A stretch of DNA of 64,000 nucleotides, from NCBI RefSeq assembly GCF_900095185.1, contig NZ_LT606948.1, forward strand, positions 124,001 through 188,000, written 5' to 3'. Numbering within the stretch: position 1 is the stretch's first letter; every line of letters starts with the position of its first letter. Made by a program: the position numbers and the translations under genes. The notes below the pieces were generated by a model that was given only the letters and a program-made list of their open reading frames with translations, was not told the origin of the DNA and made no database searches. Shown in pieces: positions 2,194 to 25,638 of this stretch. Origin of the DNA: Polynucleobacter necessarius (GTDB lineage Bacteria > Pseudomonadota > Gammaproteobacteria > Burkholderiales > Burkholderiaceae).

Positions 2194-4426
2194 ATGATCA
2201 AACAATTCATAGAAGCCTCAGCAATAGCACTTGTGCTGTATTGGCTCATCACTTAGACTCTTAGAGTTTGGTCTAACACCACCATTAGCAGCAGAGTCTT
2301 GGCTGGAATCGCCCTAGAAATTGTTACTGTCATTAGCATGAATAGTCCGGCATCCCTCTTTCAAGGGATTATTTTTGACATTCGCTTAATTGTCATCAAT
2401 GCAGCAACTTTGTTTTGTGGCCCCATCACTGGGGTAACGACTGCAATCATTGCCGCCGCGTTTCGGCTCTATGTGGGAGGCATCGGTGGTGATGTCAATC
2501 CTATACGCTTTTACCATTGGAGCGGCATTTCACTATGCCATTAAACAAAAATGGATTCCAGCCAAAGGAATTTCATTCTTTTTAATGGGGTTTCTTGCAC
2601 ACTCCACACTTCTTGTTCTTGTTTATCTCACCTTAACAACCACTGCCTTTCAAAACATACAGTTTTTGGCGGTTGAACGCCTCCTTCTTCCTGTCTCGCC
2701 AACCTTCTGCTCTGCCTACTCATGCAACACCAACAAAAGCAGATTACGGCTGCAGAAGAAACCAAAAGAGCCTTGGCATGCTTAAATACTATTTCTGAAG
2801 CGATACCAGACTTATTGTTAGTGCTCGATGAAAATGGAAAATACTTAGAGATATTTTCTGCCAATGAAAATTTGCTTGCTCTACCAAAAGACCAGGTCAT
2901 TGATAAAACTCTGCATGAAGTGCTGCCCAAAGAGCAAGCAGACTTTTTCTTAGTATGGGTTCGCTCTGTAATAAAGGATGGAGATACAAAACCGATTGAA
3001 TACCCAATGGTGACGTCAAATGGCACCTTGCAATTTGAAGCGCGAGGTAGGCACCTTTGGACTCCAGAAAATGGGTAAAAATCATTAGTTTTACTGACCA
3101 GAGACATTTCAGACCGTAAAAATCTTGAAACTCAGGTACACAACCTTGCCTATTTTGACCCCCCTGACTAACCTACCAAATAGAAGGTATCTTATAGAGC
3201 ATTTAGAGGATTTAGAAAAACTCAATGTAGAAGGCAAAAATGTGGGCGCTCTTCTTCATATAGATCTTGATGACTTTAGATATATCCATGAAGTTCATGG
3301 TCACTCAACCGGAGATCTGATTCTTTAAAAGTTTGTCTTTAGGCTTCAAGAAGTCCTGCATGCTAAGCATTATCTTGCACGCATTGTAAGGGATGCCTTT
3401 GCCATTCTGATAGAAGATGTGAACAAGGATCCTGCTGACGCTAAACAGCTAACAAAAGATTTTGCCAGTCATGTATTAAGGCGCATTCAAGAGCCTTTTA
3501 CGGTGTCGAACAATACAATTGCCCTCTCGACAAGTATTGGCATTGTGATGCTCGGAAGCAAATATTCCCTTCATGAATTAATGGTTTAGGCTGAGCTTGC
3601 CCTTTATGCAGCAAAAGATGATGGCAAAGATACTTCAAGATTTTTTGATCCCATCTTGCAAGAATCAGTCTCACAAAGAATCAAAATTGAAGAAGAGATT
3701 CGAGTTGCCCCAATAACCAACCAATTTCAAATTTACTATCAGCCCCAAGTCAATGCAAGAGGAGAGCTAATTGGAGTTGAGGCTCTGATACGCTGGAATC
3801 ATCTCGAGATGAGGTCTTTTATTGCCAGTAGATTTTATCCCTATAGCCGAGCATGCTGGGCTTATTTCAGAGATTGATCGTTGGGTCTTCAAACAAGCAT
3901 GTAAAGATGTTAATGAATTAGTCTCCAAATCTAATAATCCAGCCTTATTAGTGTCAAGTAATATTGGCGGCTCTCTTTTGGGACAAGCCGATCTGTTTGA
4001 GCAATTGTCAAATATGGCAGCCGAGGCATCGGTTGATCCTCATAGAATACAAATTGAAGTTACTGAAACCAGCTTAGTGAACAATTTAGAAAAATCAAAA
4101 ACTCAGATGTTAAAGCTGAAAAATATTGGTTTTAAATTTTCTCTAGATGATTTCGGTACGGGTTACTCATCATTCAATTATCTTCGCTAGTTCCCGATTG
4201 ATGAGGTAAAAATTGATCAATCCTTCGCACATGATTTACCAGATGATTTTGAGAGTCTTGCCATCAGTCAGTTGTCGCACTTGCACCAACCTTTGGCGTT
4301 ACTGTGATAGCGGAGGGAGTTGAAAGTATCGAACAAGAAAAAGCCCTCATGGAAAATGACTGCAATCACTTTCAAGGCTTCTTATATTCTAAGCCCAAAC
4401 CATTAAACATGTTATTCTCAAATTAA
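2194..4426 (+). pseudogene. 5TM-sensor/PAS/GGDEF/EAL cyclic-di-GMP protein, broken
   Basis: This was an inner-membrane cyclic-di-GMP turnover protein. In order it has a five-helix 5TMR-LYT-type sensor (about 2290-2720, with GIIFDIRLIVI and FCGPITGV), a PAS domain (about 2760-3060), a GGDEF domain opening with LTNLPNRRYL, and an EAL domain with GVEALIRWNH, a retained DDFGTGYSS and a final AEGVES motif near 4320. The GGDEF signature reads RIVRDAF, so the diguanylate cyclase half may have been inactive before the gene broke. The reading is interrupted by stops (near 2254, 3328, 3588 and 4188) and by frameshifts in the sensor, before GGDEF and in EAL near 3820. Recovered length is about 740 codons. 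It lies directly upstream of a second broken GGDEF gene. Confidence 0.88.
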
Positions 4427-4502
4427 TTACAAATTTTATCATTTAAGGCCTAAGGGCCAATATGGCGAAACCACGCTAATGTGTCTTGCATAGCAGTTCC
4501 AA

Positions 4503-5640
4503 ATGCTCTATAACAACAGTCTTCTTCTCGCTTTATGGTTAAGTCTATGCACATAGACCACCATTTTATTTGTTCTATACAAATTTAATAGAAATGTTCC
4601 CGGTTTACGGGATTGGGTTTTTGCGTTTCTACTGGACTGCTGTAATCTCTCCATTTTCCACATACAGCCCCCTTTTTTCCAAAAGTAGTATTGGTTCTGA
4701 TGAACAATCAGCATTGATGTGCGTAGGATTTTTAACGATACGCGCTTGTTATCTTCATGTCGGTGAGGTTTTTAAGCATAGCAAGATGGTTCTGACCGTT
4801 ATCGTAATTGACCTCTTACTAGCAACTTACCTGACAGTCGTTGAGCCAAATCAGCCCCTTAGATTCTTTATCGCTAGCCTGGTATCCGGAATTTTTTTAT
4901 CGCAGGCATGAAACTTACGAAAGGTGGGTTAGAAGTCTTTCCAATTCAATTTCTTTTTGGCTTCTCTCTTCTGTTGCATGGTTTATTTAATACCCTTCGC
5001 TCAAGACTATTCCAGCAGACCCGTTGCAGATGGTCTGATCAAAATTAATCAACCTTAGCCCTATACTGATGCCATCCTTTACGAACAGCTAGTAATTTCC
5101 ATTTTGTTCGCCCTAGGAATAGTCATGATTCTGAACGAATCAACAGCCAAACAACTACGTGTCTATGCTAAATTCGACAGCCTGACTAATTGATTTAATA
5201 GAAGAGTTTTTTAGGGTTATTAAAAAAGAATAAAAATGCCTTCATCTCTACTGAAGATGAGATATTGACTATTTCAAATCAATCAATGATCAATACGGTC
5301 ACCATATTGGTGATCAAGTTTTGGCTAATTTTGCATCTTTAGCAAAAAAAATTTTCGCGAAGAGGATAGCGTCTTCAGAATCGGTGGTAAAGAATTTACC
5401 ATTCTTCTACCAAATACAAGCGAGCACTCCGCGCTGCAATTTGCAGAACGTTTACGCTCTCTAGTTGAGGCAAGCGCCTGTAATATAGATCACAGGACAA
5501 TTAAATATACGATTAGTATTGGGGTCATTACCTGTGACCAAGAAATGACAGTTGATGAGGCATTAAATCCATCTGATTTAGCGATGTATCAAGCCAAGAA
5601 CAATGGTAGAAATCAAGTCAAATACTTCAATATTCAGTAA
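4503..5640 (+). pseudogene. Membrane GGDEF diguanylate cyclase, broken
   Basis: The gene is a decayed diguanylate cyclase. It opens with a hydrophobic N-terminus (MLYNNSLLLALW) carrying a stop at codon 18. The fragment RNVPGLRDWVFAFL resembles the membrane-sensor start common in such proteins. Several hydrophobic segments run to about 5170. The C-terminal GGDEF domain is readable from about 5360: [13 protein letters not shown] (GGKEF in place of GGDEF), then YTISIGV and the closing MYQAKNNGRNQV. Many stops and frameshifts lie between 4560 and 5360, more than in most genes here, so it probably broke early. With its upstream GGDEF/EAL neighbour it suggests loss of cyclic-di-GMP signalling. Confidence 0.8.
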
Positions 5641-6468
5641 GCAGGTTTCTGCTCATCATCGTAATTCATTTCATTAACTGCCAAGTCAAAATGCTTCTAA
5701 ACATATAGCTTTGAAGCATCTAGATAAGGGCAGTCTCAAGAAGTTTTTTATGACCCAGCATTTAAGTTGTCAAAAAAAATTCCATCCCAGATAGGTTGCT
5801 GGTCAGCTTACTAGGAGCCCTATTGCAATAATGCCTAACCTACTGCAAAAGTCTATTTCTTATTAGTTTGGTCCCTAGATTTATTTGTGAATTTCGCCCA
5901 AGATTACGAAATAACTGGGCCATATCTATTATGGCTCCCTTATACAATACCTTCTTGATCTGATAAACCAAGCGTCATTTAACCAGACACTCCAATTAAA
6001 CGCTGCAAATGCCATACGACCTCCACCTCCATCCAATCAAGCCAAGAAGACCAGCCGCTGATATCGCACCACTTTCCCCGCAGGTTTAAGCTAATGTCAT
6101 AACAACTGTTCAAATACAATTTCACATCATTTAATCCGTTGGTCGCGAGTGCAAAAACGTAGTTTTGACGAAGTCAATCTCGCCCGACCCACCAGCTATA
6201 CAAAGGGATCACAGCAATGCAGTCCTTTTTCTTTTTCATCTCCAAGACTTTACAGCGACTGAAGCAAGAATTCTCGTTCGACCTAAATAATATGGGTTGC
6301 CCTTTACCAAGATAGGACTAATATTAATTAAATTAAATAATTAAGCACCATAATTAGTCAAATCAATAAGGGCTTTACCGGACATAAACCATCCCACCTT
6401 CAAAAACGCTTGCACTTCTATTTTGAGAAGCCTATTCTGGAACATATAGTTCTAATTATTAAATACAT
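5641..6468. other. 828-base stretch without a gene
   Basis: No coding frame is recognisable. The only structure I can support is a repeat with a tRNA-like 3' end at about 6128-6225, listed separately. Confidence 0.5.
6128..6225 (+). repeat. Structured repeat, copy 1, with a tRNA-Lys-like 3' half
   Basis: A stem GCGAG (6145-6149) / CTCGC (6179-6183) encloses 29 bases holding an inner hairpin AAAAC/GTTTT. It is followed by CCGACCCACCAG and a hairpin region GGGATCACAGCAATG ending in a T-rich tail. A second copy at 9311-9393 has the same 29-base spacing and paired changes in both stems. Upstream, TTTAATCCGTTGGTCGCGAG, and downstream, the GACCCACCA end, match the 3' half of bacterial tRNA-Lys(UUU) as I recall it. 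The T-loop is replaced by the 29-base insert. No 5' half of a tRNA is visible. Confidence 0.55.
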
Positions 6469-7269
6469 ATGTGAAAAGCCTTGAATGCACTCATCATTAC
6501 TACGACGATGATCTCTCTCGGCTCTTCTGCACAGACAGAAAACTCACCTACCGAGTTGCTAGATAGACCTGCAATTTTTAATTCAAAACCCTATGCAGAA
6601 ATTGGTTTAAGCTATGAACGGCTAACAAACGGATATGTCCCATGGCAAAGTCAGTATTTTGATCTAATGCTACCGCTAAAACAAAATGGATTTGTTTATC
6701 TGCAAATACTGAATGCAGAGCGATTTACCCAGATAGACCAAGCCGCTTACCTCAATTATGCATATCCACTTAAATATGGCGTAGTGAATATTGAGGGATC
6801 TCACGCCCATAACCCTCAATTTCTTGCACAAAATTTTTATGGTGCTGACTTGAGCGGTAAATTGCCTTATGAATTTAATTATTGAATTTCTGGACGAGAG
6901 AGCAGTTATTTGGATGGCAGGACTAGCAATCAAAATTTGGGAATAGATAAATATATTGATCAATGGAGGATGGCTTATGTTGCAACTTATTCAACTCTAA
7001 ATAGCCAAAAAAGCGGCTGGTTAAGCAGATATCAAGTCCAATGGTTTGCAAAAAATAATCACCGCATTGGACTGACATACTCTAGCGGTCACGAACCAAC
7101 GGTAGTCAACATAGGAAATCTCACTACTATAGATACACAATAATACCTTGTAGATGGGCTCTATTGGCTAAACAATGAAATTGGACTTACCTTAGCCGCA
7201 TGGCATGCAAAACAAGGTAGTCATTACCAAAGAAATGGGTGGCAAATTGGACTTCGATTGGCTTGTTGA
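6469..7269 (+). pseudogene. YaiO-family outer-membrane beta-barrel protein, broken
   Basis: This encoded an outer-membrane beta-barrel of the YaiO type, which is often found beside a glycosyltransferase and is probably linked to polysaccharide export. A signal peptide (LNALIITTTMISLGSSAQ) is followed by amphipathic strands such as PYAEIGLSYERLTNGY and the closing strand WQIGLRLAC. The frame is continuous from 6469 to 7269. It is cut only by in-frame stops: a TGA directly after the likely ATG at 6469, a TGA at 6883-6885 and a TAA at 7141-7143. TTG at 6481 could serve as an alternative start. There are no frameshifts, so decay is recent. The 3' end overlaps the start of the HEAT-repeat gene, indicating an operon with it and the glycosyltransferase. 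Confidence 0.75.
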
Positions 7270-7921
7270 CCCTTTATTGCTTTATGCGCTTACCCTAACT
7301 GCTAGTTTATTTGGCGGAATTTTTATCCTAATACTGACTATTGTGATAAAGCATAGCCGCCTACAAAGTGAAAAAATACACAATCATTTTATTCTGTTAT
7401 TACATCAAACCGCAAAGCATTGTGAAGAGGGCAAGAATACTCAAGATCAGATAAGCCGTATTAACACTTTAATTCGACTTCATAAAATAGATATTGCATA
7501 TGGATAGGTAAGATTGCTCGAGAACACCCCTAAATCAGATCGCCCAAAATACATAGTCGTTGCAACCAAAACAAATGTACTTGAATGCATCCCTCACTGC
7601 CTCAATAGCGGAGGTTTGGAAGAGAAATGCATAGCTCTTGAAGCCATTGGACTATCCAATTTTAATAGCCATATCAATCATGTAAAACTATATACAGATC
7701 AGGAAATTGTTTCACCATATGCCTGCGTGGCACTAGCTCGCATGATTGGTAAGGAGTCACTTCCACTGATCATTCATGCCTATGAAAAAGGTGTGCTTTT
7801 AACAACCCAAGCATTGGCTGCCATAGTAGAGATTCCTGATGAGCAAATCTTTAACTATAGAAAGGACTTAACTCAAACAAATCTTCCAAATCAAATTTTT
7901 CAATATCTTGAGCTGACCTAG
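7235..7921 (+). pseudogene. Membrane-anchored HEAT-repeat protein, one in-frame stop
   Basis: The ATG at 7235 opens a protein with one N-terminal membrane helix (about residues 10-35, LLYALTLTASLFGGIF) followed by an alpha-helical region resembling HEAT repeats. Helices such as GLEEKCIALEAIGL and YACVALARMIGKESL pair in the usual way. The frame is open from 7235 to 7921 except for one TAG at 7505-7507, between the membrane part and the repeats. It sits between the YaiO-like barrel and a family 2 glycosyltransferase, overlapping the former and adjoining the latter, so it was probably a scaffold of the same polysaccharide machinery. Whether any product is made is unknown. A separate soluble HEAT fragment from a TTG at 7514 cannot be excluded. 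Confidence 0.7.
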
Positions 7922-9301
7922 ATGAACATCACCACTCTCTCATCTCAAGTAGTTCGATATATGGAGTATTTTTTCATTTGCATCTATTAGTTGCATTAAT
8001 TACCTATATTGTTGTCGCGGCTCTTCTTAGGAAACATTTACGTCACCTCGGCTACCGATCTATTAATCAGGAAAACGTACCTTTTGAAAAGTTGAGCGCC
8101 CCAAAAATGAGCGTTATTATTCCAGCTCACAACGAGGCTCAAGGAATTGTTGAGAGCATCCAGGCGGCACTCTCTGCAGACTACCCAAATTATGAAATCA
8201 TTGTTGTTGATGATGGCTCTAGCGATAAAACATTTGACTATCTTAGGGAGCACTGCGAACTTGAAGAGCACAGCATAAATCCCTCAAACGCAGTCAGTGA
8301 GTCCATAGTCTTAAGCACTTACAAATCTAAAAAATACTCACGACTTCAGGTTATTCAAAAAGACCATACCGGAAAGGCTGATAGCCTAAATGTTGGGATT
8401 CAATATAGCACCGGTGTTTATGTATGCTGCATTGATAGCGATTCAATTGTTACTCCTGATGCACTCGGGAAACTCGCTATTAAATGTATGAATGAGCCAA
8501 CATTAGTTGCGCTCGGAGCATAGCACCTAGTAATGAAATTATTGTCAAAGAAGGTAGGATTAAAAGAAAGCGGGGCTCCCAATCAGTATTTGTAGGGGTT
8601 CAAATTATTGAGTACTTACACTCTTTCACTTCATGGAGAACTGGCTGGTCATATTTAGATGGCCTACTCATTATTGAAGGTGCGCTTACTGTATTGACAA
8701 AGGATGTGCCACTCAAAGTCGGAGGCTACAAAAAAGCCGCCTTTTGTGAAGATTTGGAAATTATTCTGTCTCTTCATGATTACCATTTAAAGCATAAGCC
8801 CCCTTACAAGATATGGACCATTCCAGAAGTGATATGCTGGACTAGGGTACCCACAAAGATAAAGTCGGATTAAAAAAGCAGCATATTCGCTGGATGTGGG
8901 GCGCTTTGCAAATCTTAAGCTGGCATAAAGAACTGATGTGTAACAAGGAAGATACTCTGATAGGTTGGGTTTCTTTTCCACATATTATTTTTATTGAGAC
9001 ATTTGCTCCTGTCATTGAGCTATTAGGCATCATTTCTCTTTGGGTATGCATCGTCCTGAGCCTACTTTCTTATTACTCCTTTTTTATATACGGTCTATTG
9101 ATGTATGCAATTACAGGTTTTTATTCCTGGTATGCAATTGCAATGAATGATCATTACATCAGCAGCCTTAACTCACTCAAGCAAATATTGCGCTTAGGCG
9201 CCATTGGGTTAATTGACCCTATTGACTACAGACAAAGAGACGCTTACTGGAAGATGATTGGTTGGTGGCGCTGGCTCAGAGGTACGCCAATCAAATGGTA
9301 A
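7922..9301 (+). pseudogene. Family 2 processive glycosyltransferase, broken
   Basis: This was a membrane glycosyltransferase of the cellulose/poly-GlcNAc synthase type. The GT-A motifs are visible: MSVIIPAHNEAQGIVESI, VVDDGSSD, the DXD-like IDSDS, and FCEDLEIILSL holding the catalytic acidic residue. C-terminal membrane segments (IISLWVCIVLSLLSYYSFF) end in WWRWLRGTPIKW. Frame changes lie near 7985, 8520 and 8850, with in-frame stops at 7988 and 8521. Restored length is about 460 residues, normal for the family. The start ATG at 7922 immediately follows the HEAT gene stop. The structured repeat copy 2 begins ten bases after its stop and may have served as terminator. A specific polymer cannot be assigned. 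Confidence 0.85.
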
Positions 9302-12483: not shown

Positions 12484-15230
12484 TCAACCAGTATTTCTAA
12501 GTCCAGCCGCGATTCCATTAATCGCAATATGGAATGCCTCTTTGCACCCGCTCATCATGCTTACCAGCTCTATATCGCCTTACTAACTCTATCTGCAAGT
12601 GATGCAATGGTCGATATAGGGGAAGCGATTGCGAATTGACCTTGCCAACGATGGATCCTTAGTCAAGCGAACTTTTTCTCCTGTAACTAAGTTCAAAGCC
12701 TCTACGGTTTTATTCCATTCAGCTTCGATAGCGGTAAATATTGTCTTGCGAAGCTTTGCATCAGGAACCAATTCGCTATAACGTGAGGCTAGCGCTAAAT
12801 CACTCTTAGCTAGAGCCATATCCATATTTGATAGCAAGGTCCCAAAGAATGGCCAATCCTGATACATTTTTTGTAAAAGAGCGAACGCAGCTTGTCTATC
12901 GGCAGCCTTGGGCTGCTTTAAGAAATTCTCTACCGCAAAACCAAAACCAAATCATCCAGGAAGTGTGAAACGGCACTGACACCAACGAAATCCCCAAGGG
13001 ATAGCCCAAGTCTTCAATCCTTTGGCTCGCCTTTCGACTAGCCGGGCGAGAGCCAATATTCAGTTTTGCAATTTCTCGAATGGGTGTTGCGTCACAAAAG
13101 TATTCGGCAAATCCTGGGGTTTCGTATACGAGACTCCGATAAGCATCCATACTAGCTTGTAAAATTTGTGCAGCAGCATCCAAAAAGGCCTTGCTTGCTT
13201 AGGTGACTTTAACAATGTAGCTTCTAATGTGGCAACTACCAAGATTTCTAGATTGCGACGACCAATCTCAGGATTGGCATACTTTGACCCAATTACTTCG
13301 CCCCCCGTTCAGTCAAACGAATTTGACCACGCACAGTGCCTGGAGGCTGTGCGCCAGAATAGCCTCATAGCTTGGACCACCTCCACGACCTACTGTACCG
13401 CCCCTGCCATGGAATAAACGAAGTTTTATTCCATGCTTTTGTTCGAAAGACTCAAATACCTTAATCAACGCAAGCTCTGCACAATACAACTCCCAATTGC
13501 TAGTGACAATTCCACCATCCCTGTTAGAGGCGGAGTAGCCCAACATAAGTCCTGCTCAGCACCAGCTAGTTTTACCAAATCGAGAATACCTGGCAACGCA
13601 TAAAATTCTTGCATGATGGGTGCGGTATTCGGAAGATCCTCAATTGTTTCAAATAATGGGACAACAATGAGGTCAGCTGAGGACTTTTTGCTTAACGTTT
13701 CATGCATTAAGCCTACGTTTTTTGGAGCAGTACAACTGCTAGCAAGTCACTAACCGTTTCTGCATGACTAATGATGTAATGGCGGATCGTTTCATCGCCA
13801 AATAGCTCGCGCATTCTCTTAGCCATTTCAAAACTCTAGCGATTTCAGAAATAGCAAAATCAGAGTATTGATGACCCACAACCCTAAGCGGTCTAGGATC
13901 TTTTAATAGAGATTGCAAGAGCTGACGTTTTTGCTCCTCCGAGAGACTAGAATAGTCCTGTTGAATGGATGCTGCGGACAGCAACTCAGAGAGGACAGCC
14001 TCATGCATATCTGAGCTTTGGCGCAAATCCACTGTAGCCAAATAAAAACCAAAGACCTCAACCGCCCTCCTCATCAAGTCACGCAAGCGGCGATCAGCTA
14101 GCGCCTTTGCACCCTGAGATACGAGAGAAGTTTCGATTGTCCTTAGATCCGATAACAATTCTTGTGCACTTGTATAGGGATTTTGTGGCGGAACCCACAT
14201 GTCGCGCAGCATCTGTACCTGTGAGCGCCCATCGGTATGGCTCATCCTGGCGATGTTCATTAGTATCTGGCGAACTAGCGGCAAGCTCTTGCATCTTTTT
14301 TGGAAAACTTAGGAGAAGTGCAGAGACAGACAACTCCCTACCCAAATAATGGACTTCAGTTAAGTAATGACGCAATACCATTTCTACCTGTCTAGAGGCA
14401 GCATACTCCAGCGTCTTAGCACTAACATTGGGATTACCATCTCGGTCACCACCGATCCATTGACCCATTTTCAGAAAACTGGCTACAGAATTTCCTGCAA
14501 GCAAGTCCTCTAGTTGTGCATATATTTTTGGAATTTCTCTCAAAAAAGTAGTTTTGTAATACGTCAGATCATTCTCAATCTCATCAGCAACAGTAAGCTT
14601 GGTAAATCTTAACAAGCAGGTATGCCATAACTGGAGTACGTGCGCACGAATTTGTTCTTCATTGGCCTTTAACGCTTAAACGAGCAAAGCGTCCTTTTGT
14701 GGGTTATTAGCCTTAGAAAATTCTTTAATTTGATCGCGAATAGTCAGCAAGTTGGCAATATCTCTCTCGGCTCCCAAAATACTGGTTCTCTGAACCTCGA
14801 TTGGATGTGCAGTGAGCACCGGTGAGATCAAGCGTTCTTCCAGTGTCTTCGAGATCATGCTGCTAGTGACACCAGCGGCGTGAAGCTTTTTCATGGCCAC
14901 TGAAATACTGCCGTCTTGATAACTACCAATTCGCTCATACGCTACTCGGCGGCAAATGTGGTGTCTATCTTCAGTCAAATGAGCTAAATGACTAAAGTAA
15001 GTAAAAGCTCGAAATACCTTTACAGCACTATCGCTACTAAGCCCTTTAAGTAGTTTTCCCAATTCTTGATTGGCCTTGTGCTTTGCATCACGGTGAAAGG
15101 CTACAGATAGTTTTTTAACTTGCTCCACTAACCCATATACCGAATCACCCTCTTGCTCACGAACGATATCGCCCAGCATTTTTCCCAATAGACGAATGTC
15201 ATCAATTAACGGCAACTCAGTATTTTTCAA
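12484..15230 (-). pseudogene. ppc: Phosphoenolpyruvate carboxylase, broken
   Basis: PEP carboxylase makes oxaloacetate from PEP and bicarbonate and refills the citrate cycle. Pieces cover the whole enzyme: N-terminus at 15230, active-site histidine region VLTAHPIEVQRTS (usually TAHPTEVQRRS), [25 protein letters not shown] (usually GYSDSNKDGG), the glycine-rich loop [16 protein letters not shown], and the C-terminus LRNTG ending at 12484. There are at least six frame changes (around 14640, 14200, 13720, 13540, 13200 and 12880) and another near the 3' end around 12530-12590. Restored length is about 915 residues, as in the family. The Asp-to-Ala and Thr-to-Ile changes in conserved motifs show that amino-acid constraint had also relaxed. 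Confidence 0.93.
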
Positions 15231-16604: not shown

Positions 16605-16933
16605 TTATTCTTTCTGTGTTGTTCTTCCATATTACAAAAAATAATACTTTTGTGCCACCAGAGAAATACTATTAAATAAATAGATTTAAATTAATAGCAT
16701 GCAATGCTAGTCTACATACAATTGACTGAGTAAAGCTCACTAATGGTGAGGTGACAATACGCGTGTTTTAGACGTTCAGTCACCTTAACCCTCAGTCATA
16801 TAGGGTATGTCAAACTATCGCATTGCGTCGAATTTGCCATCGGCAACCGATCCTTTTATAGAAGTGCAGCCAGGCAAGATTGGCCAAAGGCTTTGATGAT
16901 GAGTCTTTACATCTGTCATAAGGTTAAGCCCCC
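16605..16933. promoter_or_regulatory. Upstream region with nested inverted repeats
   Basis: This 329-base gap between two divergent genes holds a 7-bp stem AGGTGAC (16749-16755) / GTCACCT (16779-16785). A second stem follows, ACCCT (16788-16792) / AGGGT (16802-16806). Both precede the betaine-type transporter gene. It could be a structured leader or operator. I do not recognise a known riboswitch class in it. Confidence 0.35.
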
Positions 16934-18178
16934 TTGTATTCCAGTAGAACCCTGTCTCTTTTATGCTTTAAGTTCAGCTTTTGCATTGCAATAGGCATAG
17001 GCATAGGCATAGGCAATATAGCCTTTGCACAGCCAACGGAAAAGAATATTGTGGTTGACTCAAAGCGTTTTACAGAAAGCTATGTATTGGGGAAGATACT
17101 CAATCAAACATTGCGCGATCAAAGCGTGCAATCTATTCATCGACAGGGCCTTGGTAACACCACAATTATTGTTCAAGCTCTAACGAATGGTCAGCTTGAT
17201 ATTTACCCAGAATATACCGGGCACTTGCGATGAGAGCAGAACAGGTGAAAGCGCTGGGCTTAAAACGTATCAGTGATCTTACAAAGCGGAGCACTGAGAA
17301 GCAATCCACCCTTCGAATTGCATTATCCTCAGAATTTAAGACTAGGACTGATGGCTGGCCCATGCTTGTTCAGACTTATGATTTAAAAGTAAATCCTGGA
17401 AAGGTGTTGGAACATGGTTTAGCATACGATGCTCTTGTAAGAGGCGATGCTGATCTCGTGGATGCCTACTCTACTGATGCAGCGATTAAGCAATAGGACT
17501 TAATCCTATTGGAGGATGATAGAAACGCATTTCCACGCTATGACGCAGTACTTTTAATGCGCTCCGATTTTAATGAACAGTCCTTACAAGACTTAGCAGG
17601 AAGATTAGATGAGACTTCAATGGCAGAGTTAAATGGATTAGCTGGGTCAGGCGTCAGTTTTGAAAAAGTAGCTCGTACATTTTTATAGGCATCCACAAAT
17701 GATCAATTGAAGGTATCGCAACTCTCTAGATTTTTTAAACCACTTATTGGCCCAGATTCTTTTACCGCTCTTCGTTAGTATGTTCTTCTAGTCACCATCT
17801 CTTCAGTCATAGCCCTTCTCATCGGCGTTTCTCTGGGTATTCTTGCCTATCGACGCCCTCGATATGCCGCTTAGATCTTAGGAGCTACTGGGATTTTACA
17901 AACTATCCCTTCGCTTACACTGCTGACAATATTGATTGCCCTCCTGGATCCAATAGGGGCTATCCTAGCAGTTTTAGTATTGTTTCTTTATGGCTTATTA
18001 ACGATTGTTAATGCGACCCATATTAGCTTGATAGAGGTTCCTACAAATTTAAAAGAGGCGGCCTTAGCTCTAGGTTGCAACGAATGAAAATTACTCATTT
18101 CAATAGAACTTCCATATGCTCGTCCAGTCATCATGACGGGTTTGGCATCAGCAACCGTTATTGGTGTCGGCACCTGTA
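16934..18178 (+). pseudogene. Glycine-betaine/choline-type ABC transporter, receptor-permease fusion, broken
   Basis: This encoded an osmoprotectant-type ABC transporter (OpuBC/ProX receptor fused to a ProW-type permease). The signal peptide ends in FAQPTEKN. The receptor is recognised by VVDSKRFTESYVLGKIL, HRQGLGNTTIIVQAL and DIYPEYTG. About 40 residues are missing at 17220, where EYTG jumps to MRAEQVKALGLK. The permease begins near 17780 (LLVTISSVIALLIGVSLGIL) and contains LQTIPSLTLLTIL and the EAALALGCNE contact motif. It stops abruptly after TVIGVGT near 18178, where it is joined in frame to senA sequence. In-frame stops lie at 17494, 17686, 17776, 17872 and 18085. The ligand cannot be fixed; no ATPase partner lies nearby. 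Confidence 0.82.
16991..17014 (+). repeat. Hexanucleotide tandem repeat (ATAGGC)4
   Basis: Four perfect copies of ATAGGC lie in the signal-peptide codons of the transporter pseudogene and encode alternating Ile-Gly. The unit is six bases, so slippage would change the length without shifting frame. Confidence 0.9.
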
Positions 18179-19128
18179 TTCATCGCAACGGTCAAGTGAA
18201 ACAACCCTCATTTATAGAGAAGGTCGATTGCTTATTTAATTCCTCAGAGATAGCGCATCATGATCGCTGGTCTACCCCAATTCCATCCTTAGATAGCCTG
18301 TTGGACTACAACCATAGCCATGGTTAGCAGGACCCAAGAATTGCTGTCTAAACCAATCGATCATAAAATTGCCTACTTTGTTCAACTTGCCATCCTGCAT
18401 CAGGATATGCACAATGAGGCGTTTGCGTATATGTGGCAGTCCTTGGGACGCTCCCCGCCCTTTGAACCGCTCACTAAAGTTACCACCCCTGAGATAGGTG
18501 AACAAAGCTGGACTCATTTTTCAGAATCTTCAATAGAGGCTGGCTCTAAACCTGGCTTTGGTTTTATTTTTGATAATGAAAAATGGGCGCACTCCATCGA
18601 TCTCCCTGCCTTTGATATTGCAAGTAGACCAGTCACTAATGGTGAATATCCAGAGTTTCTAGAATCGCAACCCATGCAATCTGAACTTAAACCCGTTACA
18701 CCGCCCTCTCTCTGGAAAAAAGAGGGGGGGGGTGTTTGGCTTGAGCGATTTTTTAATCAGTGGCCTCCCTTAAATCCATCATCAGCTGTACGCCATATTA
18801 TAGTTATACAGATGCCTTATGTTTTTGCGTACATCTTCATGTACGCTTACCTAATGAACATGAGCTCAGCCTATTAATGACACAAAAGCAGATAGCGTGA
18901 CAACCCTCGAATTTATGGGGGTGGACAAGTAGCACTTTCGCGCCCTTCCCTGGATTCAGCGCAAATCCCTATATCGACTATTCACAGCCCTGGTTTGATG
19001 GCACCTATCAAGTACCAAAAAGGGGAAGCCCATTTACGCCTGATCGCCTCAGGAGAGTGGGGTTTCGCAATTTTTATCAAACCCACAGAAGCGATCATTT
19101 TTGTGGGTTTCGTACGTATTTACTCTAA
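18179..19128 (+). pseudogene. senA: Selenoneine synthase SenA (EgtB-like), truncated and broken
   Basis: SenA, an EgtB-like iron enzyme with DinB and formylglycine-generating-enzyme-like domains, joins hercynine to a selenosugar in selenoneine synthesis. Visible are DCLFNSSEIAHHDRW, the DinB motif FVQLAILHQDMHNEAFAY with two of the three expected iron ligands, FNQWPPLNPSSAV in the FGE-like domain, and the closing WTSSTFAPFPGF, YIDYSQPWFDG and FRNFYQTHRSDHFCGFRTY. About 90 N-terminal residues, which should carry the third histidine, are gone because the gene is deletion-fused to the permease upstream. Frame changes lie near 18310 and 18800, and an in-frame TGA near 18897. I prefer SenA over EgtB because senB and selD are neighbours; sequence alone cannot fully separate them. 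Confidence 0.78.
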
Positions 19129-19187
19129 ATTGAGCAAGCTCATGATGTTGTGTCGATTTCCAACCTTATATAAATTATTAATCCCCT

Positions 19188-20234
19188 ATGACTACATCAT
19201 ATAACGGCCGTCTTACCTCTTTATCTCATGGCGGAGGGTGCGGCTGCAAGATTGCGCCAGGCGTATTAAGTGACATCTTGAAAGCTGCGCCGATGCGCAA
19301 TCTACCTGCTGCTCTATTAGCGGGCTCGGATAACAATGAAGATGCCGCCGTATATCAAATTAATGAAAATCAGGCGATTGTTGCTACAACTGATTTCTTT
19401 ATGCCAATTGTGGATGATCCGTTTGAATTTGGCCGTATCGCTGCAACGAATGCAATTTCTGACATTTATGCAATGGGCGCTCAACCCCTTTTTGCACTTG
19501 CACTTCTGGGCATGCCAATGCAAATTTTACCCCTAGAAGTAATCCGGCAAGTGACTTCTGGTGGAGGGTCCGTCTGTAATGATGCAGGCATCATGATTGC
19601 TGGTGGTCACTCAATTGATACAGTAGAGCCGATTTATGGCTTAGTTGCAATTGGCGTAGTTGATCCAAAAAAATTGAAGCGCAATAACGGTGCTCGAGCG
19701 GGTGATAGCATCATCCTCAGCAAGCCATTGGGCATTGGCATTCTCTCTGCGGCTCTCAAGCAAGAAGTACTCTCAGAGGAAGGCTACCAAGAAATGATTG
19801 CGCTCACTACAAAACTCAATAAACCTGGTGTTGCACTCTCGCAATTAGACGGCGTACATGCTTTGACCGATGTCACAGGCTTTGGCCTCGCGGGACACTT
19901 ACTGGAGATAGCTAGAGGATCGCACTTAAAAGCGCAAGTGAATTGGCATGCAATTCCAGTGATTCAAGAAGCGGTCGAACATGTTAAAGCCGACATCTTT
20001 ACAGGTGCCTCCACACGCAATTGGGCTGATTACGGTAATGAAATAGAGCTCGCAAGCGATATAGCCCTCTGGCAACAAAATGTCCTGACTGATCCACAAA
20101 CCAGTGGCGGATTACTAATTTCATATGCGCCAGAACAAGAGGCAGAAGTCCTTGCCATCTTGAATGCAGATGGTTTCAATAGTGCTCAAAAAATTGGTCA
20201 GTTTGTGTCAGGCAAAGGTTTATCTGTTGACTGA
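19188..20234 (+). CDS. selD: Selenide, water dikinase (selenophosphate synthetase), intact
   Basis: SelD (called SenC in selenoneine clusters) makes selenophosphate from selenide and ATP. The 348-residue frame is complete and has the normal family length (E. coli 347). The catalytic motif is HGGGCGCK, with Cys18 in the Cys/Sec position and Lys21. Next come the ATP-binding region DNNEDAAVY and TTDFFMPIVDDPFEFGRIAATNAISD, then VTDVTGFGLAGHLLE as ALTDVTGFGLAGHL. It starts at 19188, 60 bases after the senA remnant, and is followed 48 bases later by a putative selenate-binding protein gene. It is the only undamaged gene between about 15 and 31 kb, which suggests a role beyond selenoneine, for example selenouridine in tRNA or a selenoprotein. 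Confidence 0.96.
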   Translation: MTTSYNGRLTSLSHGGGCGCKIAPGVLSDILKAAPMRNLPAALLAGSDNNEDAAVYQINENQAIVATTDFFMPIVDDPFEFGRIAATNAISDIYAMGAQPLFALALLGMPMQILPLEVIRQVTSGGGSVCNDAGIMIAGGHSIDTVEPIYGLVAIGVVDPKKLKRNNGARAGDSIILSKPLGIGILSAALKQEVLSEEGYQEMIALTTKLNKPGVALSQLDGVHALTDVTGFGLAGHLLEIARGSHLKAQVNWHAIPVIQEAVEHVKADIFTGASTRNWADYGNEIELASDIALWQQNVLTDPQTSGGLLISYAPEQEAEVLAILNADGFNSAQKIGQFVSGKGLSVD

Positions 20235-20281
20235 AACCACCCTAACTCAAACCGTATCCACTTCAATAGAAAATCATTTTT

Positions 20282-21167
20282 ATGAAATCAATCAAGCTAA
20301 ACACGCTGAAGTACTTCATTCACGCATTTCTTGTAATTAGCATTGCCACTATTACAACTATTACTATTAGTCCGGCCCAAGCGCAGGAGACACTGAGAAT
20401 TTCTGCAATTCCTGATGAATCACCAACTGAGTTGCAACGCAAATTTAAACCTTTGAGTGAGTACCTCTCAACAGAAACTAGCATGAGGATTGAGTTCACA
20501 CCTGTCACTGACTACGCAGCAGCAGTAGCAGCATTGGCAGCGGAAAAGATTGATATGGCATGGCTAGGTGGCTTTACTTATGTGCAGGATAAGAACTAAT
20601 GGCACTGCAAACCCAATCATACAAAGAACTGAAGATGAAAAATTCACGAGTCTTTTTATTGTGCCAGCCGATAGCCCCTTAAAATCATTAAGTGCATTAA
20701 AAGGCAAGACGATTGCATTTGACTCGCCATCCTCAACATCAGACCACCTTATGCCAATGTATTTCCTCATGCAAGCTGGCGTAAATCCAGATAAATATTT
20801 TAAAAACATCGCCTTTTTTGGTACACATGATGCAACTGTTGCCTGTGTAGCAAGCGGCAAGGCTGATGTTGGCGCCATGAATGCATCCGTTTGGGCAAAA
20901 CTAGATGAGGAAAAAAATCCTAATGCTCTAAAGTCAAAAGTACTTTCTACTACACCCCCCTACTTTGACTACAACTGGACAGCACGCGGGGATCTTGACC
21001 CTACAACAGTCAAGAAAATCACTGAGGCATTTTTAAAGTTAGATGCAAATAATCCTAACTACAAAGACATTATGGATCTACAGCGTGCCAATAAATATGT
21101 CCCAACCAAGTCGTCAAATTATGATGATATTGAAAAGGCAGCTCGATCCGCTGGATTGATTAAGTAA
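20282..21167 (+). pseudogene. PhnD-like binding protein, putative selenate ABC transporter receptor, frameshifted
   Basis: This encoded a periplasmic phosphonate-type binding protein. I match it from memory to the family annotated as putative selenate ABC transporter receptors that lie next to selD. A signal peptide ends in AQAQETLRISAIPDESP. Typical motifs follow: EYLSTETSMRIEF, MAWLGGFTYV, GKTIAFDSPSSTSDHLMP, ASGKADVGAMNASVW. A single small deletion near 20590 shifts the frame between GGFTYVQ and RTNGTANPII. Apart from that the two halves are clean, giving about 295 residues. The companion ATPase gene follows directly, but no permease gene is visible. The selenium substrate is inferred from gene neighbourhood only. 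Confidence 0.8.
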
Positions 21168-21171
21168 TCAC

Positions 21172-21885
21172 GTAGGATTTTCATTACAGCATCTCAGGTT
21201 TGCACACAGCACTGGAACGTCGACACTTAGTCAAATTTCACTAGCAGCAGAAGCTGGCGAATGCATCGCCATTATTGGACCTTCGGGCTCAGGCAAGACT
21301 ACGCTCCTAAGCAGCAGCTTAGCCACAGCGTTGAAGCCATCACAAGGTACTGCTGCAGCACCTAGAGGAGAATCCTTAGAGACCCTCCAAATCATCGCTT
21401 AGGCTCTTGCGCTCAAAAATTGGTTTAGTTCATCAAGCACCTCCTATCACGTTGCAGCAAATCCACAATCCTGCTTAGAGTGCTTGGAGCTAGCTGATAA
21501 GCCATTCGATCGATGTGACTGCCTTTCAGGTGGTCAGCTACAACGCGTCGGAGTTGCAAGGGTAATTTATCAAGAACCTCAGCTGATATTGGCCGATGAA
21601 CCAGTATCCGCAATGGATCCAGTTCTTTCGACTCAAACTATTGGTGTACTCATTGAAGAAGCGAAGAAAAGAAATGCAACGCTAGTTGCTAGCCTGTATG
21701 CAGTCAATATTGCCCTACGCTGGTATCCTCGTATTATTGGCATTCGGGATGGTCATGTGGTCTTCGATTTACCCTCTAGCAATGTTAGTAAAAACATCTT
21801 AAAAGAGTTATATGTATCTGAGCTTGGAGAGCTTCCCATTCAAGTCAATAAACTACGTCGAGTGCAGATGCATAACTTGGGGTAA
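21172..21885 (+). pseudogene. ABC transporter ATPase (PhnC-type), one in-frame stop
   Basis: This would be the ATP-binding subunit working with the selenate-type receptor just upstream. One frame runs from about 21172 to 21885 with Walker A (IIGPSGSGKTTLL), the ABC signature (LSGGQLQRVGVAR) and Walker B (LILADEPVSAMDP). It is interrupted by TAG at 21400-21402. The stretch between Walker A and the signature is shorter and less conserved than usual, so a small deletion is likely there. No clear start codon is seen; the first recognisable codon is GTA at 21172, five bases after the receptor stop. The permease gene expected next is missing, probably deleted between here and egtD. Confidence 0.8.
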
Positions 21886-21913
21886 GCAGCCCGCTAACTG
21901 GCCTTCATAGATA

Positions 21914-22836
21914 ATGAATCACATGAACACAATGCTGACTCAGGAATTACTTCTCAGCCTTAGCGCGGACACGCCTTCGATATCGCCAAAGTTTTTTACG
22001 ATGACATTGGCTCTCATCTTTTTGATGCTATTACGCTGCTTGAAGCATACTATCCAACGCGTACAGCAAAATGGATCATGGATCAATATCAGCAAGATAT
22101 AGCTGATGCAGTAGCTCATTGTGATGTTTTAGTCGATCTTAGTGCTCGCAACTGCGGGAAAGCAAGCATGCTTTTTAACACCCTCAAGCCAAAGCAATAT
22201 AGAGCGCTTGATATTTCACAAGAATATCTGGAAATCGCCGCCGCAGATCTACAAAAGCAGTTTCCGCAAATTGAGATGTCCGCTCATGCTATCGACTTGA
22301 GTTTGTCTCTTGCATTTCCTAATATTGAAGATTTTCGTAAGGTATTTTTTTATCCAGATTCTTCGATCGGCACCTTTGACCCCGACAAAGCCGATCAGTT
22401 TTTGATCAATTTAGCTAATGAGTGTCATGGCAATGCGGGGCTTCTTATTGGCGTTGATTTAGTCAAGGATATTGAAACTCTAGATCTCGCCTACAACGAC
22501 TCCTTAGGCGTCACCGCAGCATTTAATTTAAATATACTGCTGAATAGTCACTTCCAGATTCGGGATTGGGAGCACCATGTCTTTTATGATGCCGCTCAAT
22601 CACACATTGAAATGCACTGACGAGCACGCTCAGATGTACAAATTATCATCTCAGATAAAGCGAGAGGGAATCCTATTCTTTCATTCAGTGCTGGTGATTT
22701 AATTCATACTGAAAATAGCGATAAATATATCCAAGAATATTTTGTGGAAAAGCTACGTCGCGCTGGGTTCGGCGATATTATCTGCTAAACCGACCCAAAG
22801 AAACACTTTTTAGTCTGTTTTGTAAACGCCCAGTAG
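21914..22836 (+). pseudogene. egtD: Histidine N-alpha-methyltransferase EgtD, broken
   Basis: EgtD methylates histidine three times with SAM to give hercynine, the precursor of ergothioneine and selenoneine. The N-terminus LLSLSADTPSISPKFF is cut by a frameshift in a T run near 21995. The other frame then reads YDDIGSHLFDAITLLEAYYP, as in EgtD. An open part of 180 codons follows, with VDLSARNCGKA (usually DLGSGNGEK-like), FFYPDSSIGTFDP and GLLIGVDLVKD. Two in-frame stops, TGA at 22618 and TAA near 22786, lie in an otherwise readable C-terminus ending ACFVNAQ-like at 22836. Restored length is about 307 residues against 310-330 in the family. It converges with senB, whose 3' end is 12 bases away. 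Confidence 0.85.
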
Positions 22837-22847
22837 AGTATCTGTAT

Positions 22848-23719
22848 TCAGTGATGTATTTTCAAAATTACCAATTTTCTTAATTCTTCATTAACCGGTT
22901 CATCAATTCTTGAATAGACTGCCTCTTTCGCTTTGGGCGAATGAGATCTTTTCAAATTTCGATTTGTTTTTTTGAGTGCGCTATAAAAATCTGGCACCGT
23001 CTCAGAGCGATACAGCAGACTTGCAAGAGCCACCTCGTTATCAACCGGGTAATAAGCAAGATAATCGTCTCCAAGTAGACCTCTATTACCTGGTATTTCG
23101 GAGGCTATGACCGGAATCCCTAGCGCGATTGCCTCTGATACCACGTGAGCGCCCCTCTTCCATACGACTAGAAATAACCATGAGGTGGCTATTAGCAAGC
23201 ATCTTCAACGCCTCTAAATGTCCGACCCCTCCAACCCATTGGTAACGCTCCAGAGATTCCTTATATAACTTGGCGGTGTGCTCCATTTGCTCATTCATAG
23301 CCATTCCTAAATGCTGAACGGTGATTTTAGGATTCGGTGGCAGCAAGGGAAGACGGCGAACAATGCAAAAGGGATCTTTCTCCTCCCGAAGATGGCCAAT
23401 GACCACCACCCGAAAACCTTGTCCAGCAGTGGCATTTGCAATATCAACCCGCACTGATTGGTAAATCACTTGAGCTTTATAGCGAAGGTGTACGGGAATT
23501 GATAATAGGCCTATTAGGGTGTTTTTTGTGAAACTCCATAATTGACGAATGACTGCGATAGGCATGAAGCGCCATTAATACGGCAGCATCGCTACCCGAC
23601 CAAGACTCGGTAACAAGCACTGCATAGCCAAGCTCTTCCAAGAAATCCTGCCAACGCAATGCAGTGACGCGATTACCGTGCAGACTTCCTTTGGGTGCAG
23701 GAGTAACGATTTCAATCAA
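22848..23719 (-). pseudogene. senB: Selenosugar synthase SenB (TIGR04348-type glycosyltransferase), broken
   Basis: SenB couples selenophosphate to a UDP-sugar, giving a selenosugar for SenA. The N-terminus has the family hallmark VTPAPKGSLHGNRVTALRW followed by FLEELGY. The middle reads VVIGHLREEKDPF and VQHLGMAM. The C-terminal donor site reads SEAIALGIPVIASEIPGNRGLLGDDY. Frame changes occur near 23540 and 23150. The start is taken as TTG at 23719, though an upstream start is possible. It is transcribed towards egtD, opposite to senA and selD. Identification rests on motif recall plus the neighbours senA, selD and egtD, which together make a full selenoneine set. Confidence 0.8.
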
Positions 23720-23954
23720 GGGTTTGATATTTGGTCCTTATGGCGATGCCTATTTGTTTACAAGCCCAATAGTAATAGATGAATTCAGTAAAGGTATGGA
23801 TGCTATGTGCATCCAATAAATACTCCTAATCATTCACCTTGAATCCGTTTATCACCAGTTTAAGAATAATGTTTAGGCGTATCTCACCTTAACTGAGACC
23901 TGAGTAGTGAAAGCAAAAAGCCGCTATTTCTAATACAATCGCCAACTTTAATTA

Positions 23955-24701
23955 TCACTGCAAAGGGCCAGACTTTCCTGTTATCCTTGACGATGGGTCG
24001 GCTATTAGACCTTGGCATACAAGATTATTATCTTTTAGGTGCTGATTCGCTAGCTTGACCCGCTCATCAATATCGGGATGAGCATATAAATACGTTAGCG
24101 CACGAGAAACCGCAAAATTTTTTCCCCCTCGACACTTTGCAATACACAACGCAACAATCCCAAGGCCAACTGGACTGCAGCTAAGCGATCACTGAATGCA
24201 AGCCAGACTTTAAAGATACCAGTTAGAAAAGTTTGTACACCAAAGTAGAAGACCGCACCAAAATCAGCCAAGACCTCCATTAATTGAGAAGGTCCAGATA
24301 GCACCAGCCATTGATCTTGGATCAGGAAAGAATCAAAGAGACTCCATATTGAGCATTACCCTAAGAGCTGTCTAAATAGGTCCAGAAAACTGCAGAAGAT
24401 CTACAAAAAGATAAGCCATCACATACGTGGGGACTGCCAAGGGAAGGATTAACACTCACTCCAAGACTCTCTTACCAGGAAAATCATAGCTCGCAATAAT
24501 CCAAGCGTTACCCACGCCCAATATAAAACCCCCTACACCAACCCCGATAATTAGGATGAGGGTTGAAACAATAGAACCACGGAGAACATAGTTCCATAAA
24601 TGACTCAACGTTCCAGAGGCCAATACTCCTGTACTGCCTCCAGATGGGAAAAGGAATGGCAAAAATAAAAACAAGGCAATTGGCACCACTACACGTTTCA
24701 T
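23955..24701 (-). pseudogene. Iron(III)-type ABC transporter permease (FbpB-like), internally deleted
   Basis: The N-terminal start region (24701-24456) has a hydrophobic first helix and TLILIIGVGVGGFILGVGNA followed by ASYDFPGKR, typical of FbpB-like Fe3+ permeases. It continues as LPLAVPTYVMAYLFVDLLQFSGP in another frame. The sequence then jumps to the C-terminal transmembrane domain LMEVLADFGAVFYFGVQTF and TGIFKVWLAF. Some 300 residues of a normally 500-560-residue permease are missing. Further stops and shifts follow. It is divergent from the ATPase remnant at 24785, an arrangement that may itself reflect rearrangement. Iron as substrate is inferred from family similarity only. Confidence 0.7.
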
Positions 24702-24784
24702 GAATTCGGTAATCCGTTTAGACTCTTGATATGCATTAAACCACCAGCATAGATGAGAAAATTATAGGGCTGCACTCAGCGCAC

Positions 24785-25519
24785 GTACTGCTTTCTGTCA
24801 AAGAATTAAAAATTGACTATCCAAGCCGAGATAGTCAAAGCCGAGTTATTGCCGTTAACGGTCTCAATCTCGATCTCGATCGCATGGAAGGTGAGATTGG
24901 CTGCCTGTTAGTCTCCTCAGGCTATGGTAAAGCTACCATATTGAGGGCGATCTGTGGGTTTGAGCCAGTTAATCCAGTTTAGACATTGAACTTCGGGAGC
25001 GACTTGCAGTGGAGATGCGCGATATTCTCAAAGCAAATAACCATTACTGCCCTACTGGTCACTCATGATCAATTTGAGGCATTTGCAATTACAGACAAAA
25101 TTGGTGTCATAGCAGACGGTAAAGTTCTTCTATGGGATATGCCTTATGAACTCTATCATCAACCAGCCAACCGCTATGTCGCTGATTTCATAGGACGAGG
25201 GGTGTTCATGAAAGGCATCATTCAATCTGGCAATAAGATCAAACTTGAAATTGGCGAACTACCACTCGAGCGCGACCACAGCAATGATATTGGCAAGGAA
25301 ATATAAGTGTTACTCCGAGCAGATGATATCCAGCATGATGACAATAGCCCCATGCTTGCAGAAGTTGTTCGCAAAACATTTAGAGGTGCAGATTTTCTCT
25401 ATACCCTCAAACTCCAATCAGGCGCAGAAATATTAGCCCTTGTGCCAAGCCACCACAATCATGGCATTGGCGAAAAGATTAGAATTACTTTAGCTCTGGA
25501 TCACGTTGTTACTTTGTAA
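24785..25519 (+). pseudogene. Iron/putrescine-type ABC ATPase (FbpC-like), core deleted
   Basis: The N-terminus reads LKIDYPSRDS and VIAVNGLNLDL, then a degenerate Walker A, LVSSGYGKATILRAI (usually GPSGCGKTT). After GFEPVNP the text jumps to ELRERLAVEMRDIL and LLVTHDQFEAFAITDKIGVI, so the Q-loop, signature and Walker B regions are deleted. The H-loop VTHDQFEAF and the C-terminal TOBE-like domain (ADFIGRGVFMKG, RADDIQHD) remain. In-frame stops lie at 24979 and 25304-25306. It was probably the ATPase for the permease on the opposite strand. No ATP hydrolysis can be expected from this product. Confidence 0.75.
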
Positions 25520-25638
25520 TCCACTTTAGTTCTTTGACCCCTAGCAGGGCTGGCAATATTGAACTAAAAAATCGGAAAGGTAATCACCAGATCAAGAAAA
25601 TCTTTTTAATTACTAGAGAAGTTCTGTTAACCATTTAA

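Follow-up and report, generated by a model that had tools for sequence, protein, structure and literature searches.

A decayed Polynucleobacter gene cluster, probably for selenoneine synthesis, with selD as its sole intact gene

Gene remains at the locus

The stretch of DNA analyzed here (the window, 64,000 nucleotides) comprises bases 124001-188000 of the single-contig genome of Polynucleobacter necessarius, which has 1,655,757 bases. Between 16,934 and 23,737 it holds the remains of a selenium-related gene cluster, in which selD is intact and every other remaining gene is broken. With a probability of about 85%, which applies jointly to the ancestral roles proposed below and to the retention of SelD for the tRNA 2-selenouridine synthase MnmH, this region is what decay has left of a Polynucleobacter cluster that served the synthesis of selenoneine, a selenium antioxidant. 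An earlier note on the same DNA had placed SenA, SelD, a PhnD-like receptor presumed to bind selenate, its ATPase, EgtD, and SenB at 18179-23719 and had described the locus as decaying. Each of these genes was matched by NCBIfam models at its place, and the decay was borne out by breaks in all pieces except SelD. The pieces and their coordinates thus stood, but the 5' limit did not, as the cluster starts near 16,934 with a gene for a fused binding protein-permease transporter (the fusion gene, 16,934-18,177) upstream of senA. This transporter, the loss of both permease genes, and SelD as the sole intact gene, with the reason for its survival, were absent from the earlier note.

Genes were identified using NCBIfam profile models on the window, and loci fetched from relatives (L labels) were scanned likewise. 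The genus comparison set consisted of 186 Polynucleobacter genomes (G labels), and genome-wide statements are based on profile or sequence searches of genomes. The cut-offs were 420 bits for SenA (NF041186), 299 for SelD (NF002098), 250 for TIGR04553, 266 for PhnC, 217 for PhnE, 291 for EgtD, 300 for SenB (TIGR04348), and 266 for MnmH. The genome sets for the co-occurrence counts (SenB, TIGR04553, EgtD, and the fusion gene) were copied by hand from the match tables.

The SenA model matched 18320-18874 with 119 bits as against 58 bits for EgtB, a margin of 61 bits, and three pieces on the - strand matched the SenB model (80, 108, and 84 bits), whereas no other glycosyltransferase model scored above 23 bits. 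The readings of these pieces as a plain EgtB and as a generic glycosyltransferase were ruled out by the scores, in agreement with the earlier assignments of 18179-19128 to SenA and of the last gene to TIGR04348. The SelD match extended from 19188 to 20231 (507 bits), whereas the TIGR04553 binding protein was matched in two frames (20282-20596, 96 bits; 20568-21164, 223 bits). PhnC was matched by TIGR02315 at 21484-21882 (111 bits), and EgtD by TIGR03438 at 22078-22617 (158 bits).

The fusion pseudogene keeps about amino acids 1-92 and 133-451 of 505 and has lost its C-terminus; it contains five in-frame stops, and about 121 nt are missing at 17220/17221 in the DNA alignment with L151, a locus of genome G011. 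The stretch lost at 18176/18179 comprised the end of the fusion gene, the intergenic stretch, and the first approximately 69 codons of senA. This junction joins the truncated fusion gene to about codon 70 of senA, and SenA therefore seemed to begin at 18179, a start given in the earlier note that is corrected here. A single deletion of about 1.6 kb removed phnE1 and nearly all of phnE2, leaving a scar at 21846-21850. Judged by eye from the reading frames, one of the frame changes in senB falls within its sugar-donor motif, EGGAHV. That the frame breaks are sequencing errors in a functional cluster is hardly conceivable. The assembly method of the single contig is not stated, but the loss of both permeases left a clean scar, four further losses of smaller size were mapped (about five deletions in all), and the fusion gene alone has five in-frame stops; SelD and MnmH are clean.

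The window contains 11 non-overlapping open reading frames of at least 250 amino acids, as compared with a density of 39 per 64 kb in those loci of relatives that span at least 17 kb. The ciliate endosymbiont of the P. necessarius type is described, in an excerpt of PMC5018217, as having a genome of about 1.6 Mb with many pseudogenes. The size and decay of the genome analyzed here agree with this type and suggest an endosymbiotic state.

Table 1. Features of the decayed cluster (window coordinates)
Feature	Position	Strand	Remarks
Fusion transporter pseudogene	16934..18177	+	OsmF/ProX-like quaternary-amine-type binding domain and ProW/ChoW-type permease
Deletion junction	18176..18179	.	Loss of about 490 nt compared with L151 (4129 to 4619 of its reverse complement)
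senA pseudogene	18178..19125	+	About aa 70-383; an in-frame stop and two frame changes (near 18318 and near 18790)
selD	19188..20234	+	348 aa; alone in the cluster in being intact
TIGR04553 "putative selenate" binding protein pseudogene	20282..21167	+	Stop and frame change near 20593-20599
PhnC-type ATPase pseudogene	21172..21850	+	At 21447-21463, 15 nt in place of about 106; a single in-frame stop
Permease deletion scar	21846..21885	+	Last ~13 PhnE2 codons fused to the end of phnC; same tail in phnE2 of L004
egtD pseudogene	21923..22827	+	Frame change near 21990; two in-frame stops
senB pseudogene	22883..23737	-	Broken into at least three frames; lacks about aa 82-119

Intact clusters in related genomes and the likely product

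The region 16,868-23,738 was collinear with L151 and L180 in blocks of 69-78% DNA identity, the alignment with L151 running from 16,871 to 23,738. An intact cluster, which the earlier note had proposed looking for in free-living Polynucleobacter, was thus found in relatives of the genus whose free-living state is assumed. In L151, SelD (507 bits), the TIGR04553 binding protein (360 bits), SenB (385 bits), and EgtD (342 bits) exceeded their cut-offs, the two PhnE permeases scored 200 and 248 bits, and SenA (398 bits) and PhnC (204 bits) fell below theirs. Intact copies of the fusion gene were present in L151, L157, L169, L171, L180, and L182.

SenB exceeded its cut-off in 57 of the 186 genomes; all 14 control genomes gave a match, none of them over the cut-off. 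Because control genomes, too, match below the cut-offs, the raw counts of any match for SelD, MnmH, and SenB were set aside. Genomes with a partial or decayed SenB (G179, G035, G048, G019, and G000) were pooled with the 57, giving 62 SenB genomes, and EgtD (whole, partial, or decayed) was present in 54 of these. The TIGR04553 binding protein exceeded its cut-off in 43 genomes, 41 of which have a whole or partial SenB. The Fisher values for co-occurrence with SenB were 4e-23 for the binding protein and 2e-15 for the fusion gene, both overstated, as the genomes are related.

The arrangement was compared in 40 loci picked for SenB (whole; broken in G035) or, in G050, for EgtD and the binding protein, and the counts are biased towards the cluster because the loci were chosen for its genes. 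The complete order was found with the fusion gene before senA in five loci and without the fusion gene in the stretch in 11; four loci had the fusion gene without the importer, six had neither, and 14 showed other arrangements. The binding protein lay within the stretch in 21 of the 40. Among 80 loci found by SelD similarity, several of them on short contigs, 19 showed SenB, and seven of these (L004, L035, L053, L058, L068, L075, and L078) also had the binding protein. SelD, or SenC, adjoins other sen genes both in the window and in the relatives' loci. In L155 (G035), one of the 11, SelD is broken by a frame change near a GCGC stretch and SenB is broken as well, in an otherwise open cluster, which may be early decay or an assembly error.

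The product of the cluster depends on the identity of its SenA-like enzyme. For all 11 full-length SenA proteins of relatives, the best family was SenA (352-398 bits). Two results count against this assignment: all 11 scored below the curated cut-off, and SenA of L151 matched the OvsA structure 8ux5 (181 bits) as well as it matched the SenA structures 8ryz (180.6 bits) and 8k5i (180.4 bits). The assignment to selenoneine therefore rests largely on EgtD. On these two results, the cluster might have made ovoselenol or plain ergothioneine, its SenA-like enzyme being an OvsA or an EgtB, but this is quite improbable. EgtB scored only 168-213 bits in the same 11 proteins, and OvsA 8ux5 was aligned to SenA of L151 in three pieces around inserts, whereas SenA 8ryz was aligned in one. 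Moreover, the hercynine-making EgtD accompanies SenB in most of the SenB genomes, and of the eight without it, four (G054, G111, G127, and G128) show no SenA in the fetched SenB stretch either; the SenB regions of the remaining ones (G019, G049, G155, and G174) are outside these four fetched stretches. The co-occurrence with EgtD thus favors selenoneine over ovoselenol as the predicted product.

Several loci with SenB have other surroundings. SenB over the cut-off stands without SenA or EgtD in the fetched stretches L146 (G127), L148 (G054), and L174 (G128), where it is either a remnant or serves a different selenosugar product. A 397-amino-acid transporter of the major facilitator superfamily type adjoins SenB in L148 and L174, and also in the SenA-bearing L144. 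L159 (G111) has a SelD-SenB pair at 2403-8380 and no SenA or EgtD in the stretch; from their translations, the genes upstream of this pair are presumably cysD, cysN, and a siroheme synthase gene. In L144 (G126), a gene at 6621-7907 for a 428-amino-acid ATP-grasp-like protein, with weak family matches, directly precedes SenA.

Candidate transporters of the cluster

The binding protein, PhnC, and the two permeases correspond to a PhnCDE-type ABC (ATP-binding cassette) importer, for which selenium is a putative substrate: "putative selenate" is a database label, and TIGR04553 is a model of the "hypoth_equivalog" kind. The system could instead import phosphite, phosphonate, or phosphate, its place in the cluster being due to chance or to phosphorus supply, and the best sequence matches of the binding protein among solved structures were indeed phosphonate and phosphite binders (7s6g, 5lq5, and PtxB 5o2j). 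Nor is the arrangement fixed, since the binding protein lies far from the sen genes in G005, G014, G017, and G070, and in G052 it occurs without SenB and far from the listed SelD. This alternative is nevertheless rather unlikely in view of the co-occurrence with SenB given above (in related and not independent genomes) and of the position of the binding protein beside SelD even where SenB is missing, as in L006 (P. kasalickyi), L071 (a Variovorax metagenome-assembled genome), and G021. In addition, the sequence relatives of the binding protein include the binders named ArrX and Aio (PtxB-like), which we take to be linked to arsenic, and the group is therefore not confined to phosphorus. A selenium oxyanion is the putative substrate that we prefer.

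In the product of the fusion gene (about 505 amino acids), the OsmF/ProX-like binding domain comes first and a ProW/ChoW-like permease second. The gene was matched in 38 of the 186 genomes, in 35 of them with at least 46% identity (the window's own genome and that of the query included), after three weak matches (G004, G009, and G125; 30-35% identity) had been dropped. A whole, partial, or decayed SenB is present in 32 of the 35; the others are G177, G173, and G151, which are drafts of varied completeness, and G173 is also without a SelD over the cut-off. As counted by hand from the coordinates, no more than 10 kb separates the fusion gene from senA, selD, the binding protein gene, egtD, or senB in 28 of 29 checkable genomes, the own genome included, with G055, G057, and G048 set aside for having the genes on different contigs. 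The exception is G005, where the fusion gene is at 1,003,151 but SelD and SenB are at 715,708-717,693. The arrangement of the fusion gene varies: in some loci it precedes senA and points the same way, in L171 the two are divergent and three other open reading frames separate them, in L160 and L156 it stands before senB, and in L177 before egtD (stop at 13005, next start at 13022). Sen genes are accompanied by the fusion gene in two further contigs from other Burkholderiales. It starts at the last base of selD in L065, which belongs to the Alcaligenaceae, and is near the importer in L035.

Like EgtU of Streptococcus pneumoniae, as described in part of PMC9732360, the fusion protein unites a binding domain with a permease and belongs to the quaternary-amine class. 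The EgtU residues Y341, Y419, Y443, N339, K242, R379, E375, and T275 are kept in the fusion proteins of L151 and L177 (numbering by eye), whereas I243, G244, F293, and Y337 are R, F, Y, and F in these proteins, the place of G244 and the pair F293/Y337 being ProX-like. Since the trimethylammonium cage and the carboxylate contacts are kept and the positions for ergothioneine specificity are ProX-like, the protein is predicted to be a betaine-type importer and not EgtU, an identity ruled out by the specificity residues G244 and F293/Y337 as published in that part of the source. An ATPase gene was not seen beside the fusion gene, and a clear partner was not found by the ProV-type search, in which none of the six genomes searched exceeded the cut-off and many weaker ATPases appeared; this counts against the proposed reading of the cluster. 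The two proteins also differ in domain order, the binding domain coming last in EgtU and first in the fusion protein. The substrate of the fusion transporter was probably a trimethylammonium compound linked with the pathway: hercynine, selenoneine, or some related betaine.

Remains of another ABC transporter are present outside the cluster, at 24456-25520 of the window. Its ATPase piece is nearest to the PhnT2/PotA models, and a permease-like piece on the opposite strand is without a family match.

Retention of selD and comparison with known systems

Only one SelD in the genome exceeds the cut-off (415 bits), and the sole further match reached 22.6 bits. MnmH is intact (357 amino acids, 488 bits) and carries what we take to be its characteristic CWRGG and P-loop motifs. 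SelA was not found in the profile search of the window's genome (0 of 1), E. coli being among the control genomes that match, and therefore no selenocysteine route is evident. Across the genus, SelD and MnmH exceeded their cut-offs in 181 and 176 of the 186 genomes, respectively, as against 57 for SenB. From the sole copy of SelD, the intact MnmH, and the absence of SelA, we infer that SelD was most likely retained, under selection, for the 2-selenouridine made by MnmH.

Consistent with this, the identity of SelD to three relatives was 88.5-89.9%, as compared with 90.8-91.7% between those relatives and L153. The corresponding values were 79% versus 90-91% for the binding protein and 72-73% versus 85-87% for PhnC, and the gaps were smaller for SenA and the fusion gene. 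Some results do not fit so well. EgtD showed almost no acceleration, and SenB of the window was nearer to L151, L180, and L182 than those are to L153, a reverse gap that arises because the SenB of L153 has itself diverged. Synonymous sites are nearly saturated (pS was 0.53-0.73 for pairs with the window and as high as 0.77 for pairs of relatives), and dN/dS is thus only indicative. MnmH is present in four of the five genomes without a SelD over the cut-off (G016, G147, G150, and G154; drafts of 130-290 contigs), which reflects either gaps in the drafts or a selenium-free role of MnmH. G035 forms a contrast case in that its cluster SelD and SenB are frameshifted while a second SelD is encoded elsewhere (C1:1070160-1071089, 425.6 bits), and these frameshifts could be assembly errors.

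The retention of SelD could also be a matter of time, the decay of the cluster being recent and SelD not yet hit. A lone intact gene among remains is not improbable by itself, the near-saturated synonymous sites blunt any measure of selection, and the four drafts with MnmH could be taken in the same sense. Survival by chance is nevertheless unlikely, given the lesions in each other remaining gene, the loss of phnE1 and phnE2, a SelD identity to relatives that almost equals that among the relatives, and the intact MnmH as the user of a sole SelD. Selection for the tRNA modification is the explanation carried forward here.

In summary, the ancestral cluster appears to have had the order fusion transporter, senA, selD, TIGR04553 binding protein, phnC, phnE1, phnE2, and egtD, with senB on the opposite strand. 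In the ancestor, the PhnD-like ABC importer would have taken up a selenium oxyanion. According to published enzyme chemistry, SelD would then have formed selenophosphate, SenB a selenosugar, and EgtD hercynine, and SenA would have coupled hercynine and the selenosugar to selenoneine. The interpretation in the earlier note, of an ancestor that made selenoneine and took up selenate or a similar anion, is on the whole supported, with selenate as a putative substrate. In the reduced genome, point changes and about five deletions would have destroyed all but SelD, which, as the only selenophosphate synthetase, would still be needed by MnmH for tRNA 2-selenouridine.

The intact relatives, in a freshwater genus with cultivated members, offer a concrete candidate for an importer that is recurrently placed with a selenium pathway, and the fusion transporter, which recurs next to sen genes in more than one arrangement, is a candidate carrier of selenoneine or hercynine. 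As the decayed copy suggests, a reduced genome has given up the antioxidant use of selenium while probably keeping its use in tRNA. As a tentative extension, less likely than not to be true, the TIGR04553 PhnCDE-type system might be the high-affinity importer of selenium oxyanions that has so far been missing in bacteria, and the fusion protein a selenoneine or hercynine transporter whose ProX-like pocket sets it apart from EgtU. The sen clusters of Burkholderiales would then have a dedicated kit for selenium supply and recycling, and the reduced genome would be a natural knock-out in which the antioxidant pathway is parted from the use of selenium in tRNA. Among the open-licence papers listed in the literature survey, neither an importer that regularly accompanies the cluster nor the fusion transporter was met, nor was decay with SelD kept. 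By title and abstract, the papers listed on a selenate transporter did not treat the sen cluster, and those listed on selenoneine, ergothioneine, or other selenium metabolites in the genus did not contain the name Polynucleobacter.

Among known systems, the sen cluster of Variovorax paradoxus reportedly comprises senA, senB, and senC, the last identical with selD (Kayrouz, 2022). The loci described here add egtD and, often, the PhnCDE-type importer and the betaine-type fusion transporter to this set, and the copy in the window differs further in having decayed as a cluster. The sen pathway itself is published (PMC9814287), and the Variovorax cluster as given there and in parts of PMC10702425 and PMC10891094 has in common with the loci described here a SenA-like synthase, a TIGR04348 SenB, and SelD together. 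SenB of L151 keeps N20, T23, K158, and EGGAHV, by eye against the available part of PMC10891094. The ovoselenol pathway (OvsA; PDB titles and part of PMC13188914) employs a related enzyme at a similar sequence distance; in contrast to it, EgtD is present here and the inserts of OvsA are missing. With the PhnCDE and PtxABC importers of phosphonate and phosphite, the importer shares a binding protein, an ATPase, and two PhnE-type permeases; it differs in its TIGR04553 subfamily, in its position mostly beside selD in the fetched loci, and in its substrate, putatively a selenium oxyanion.

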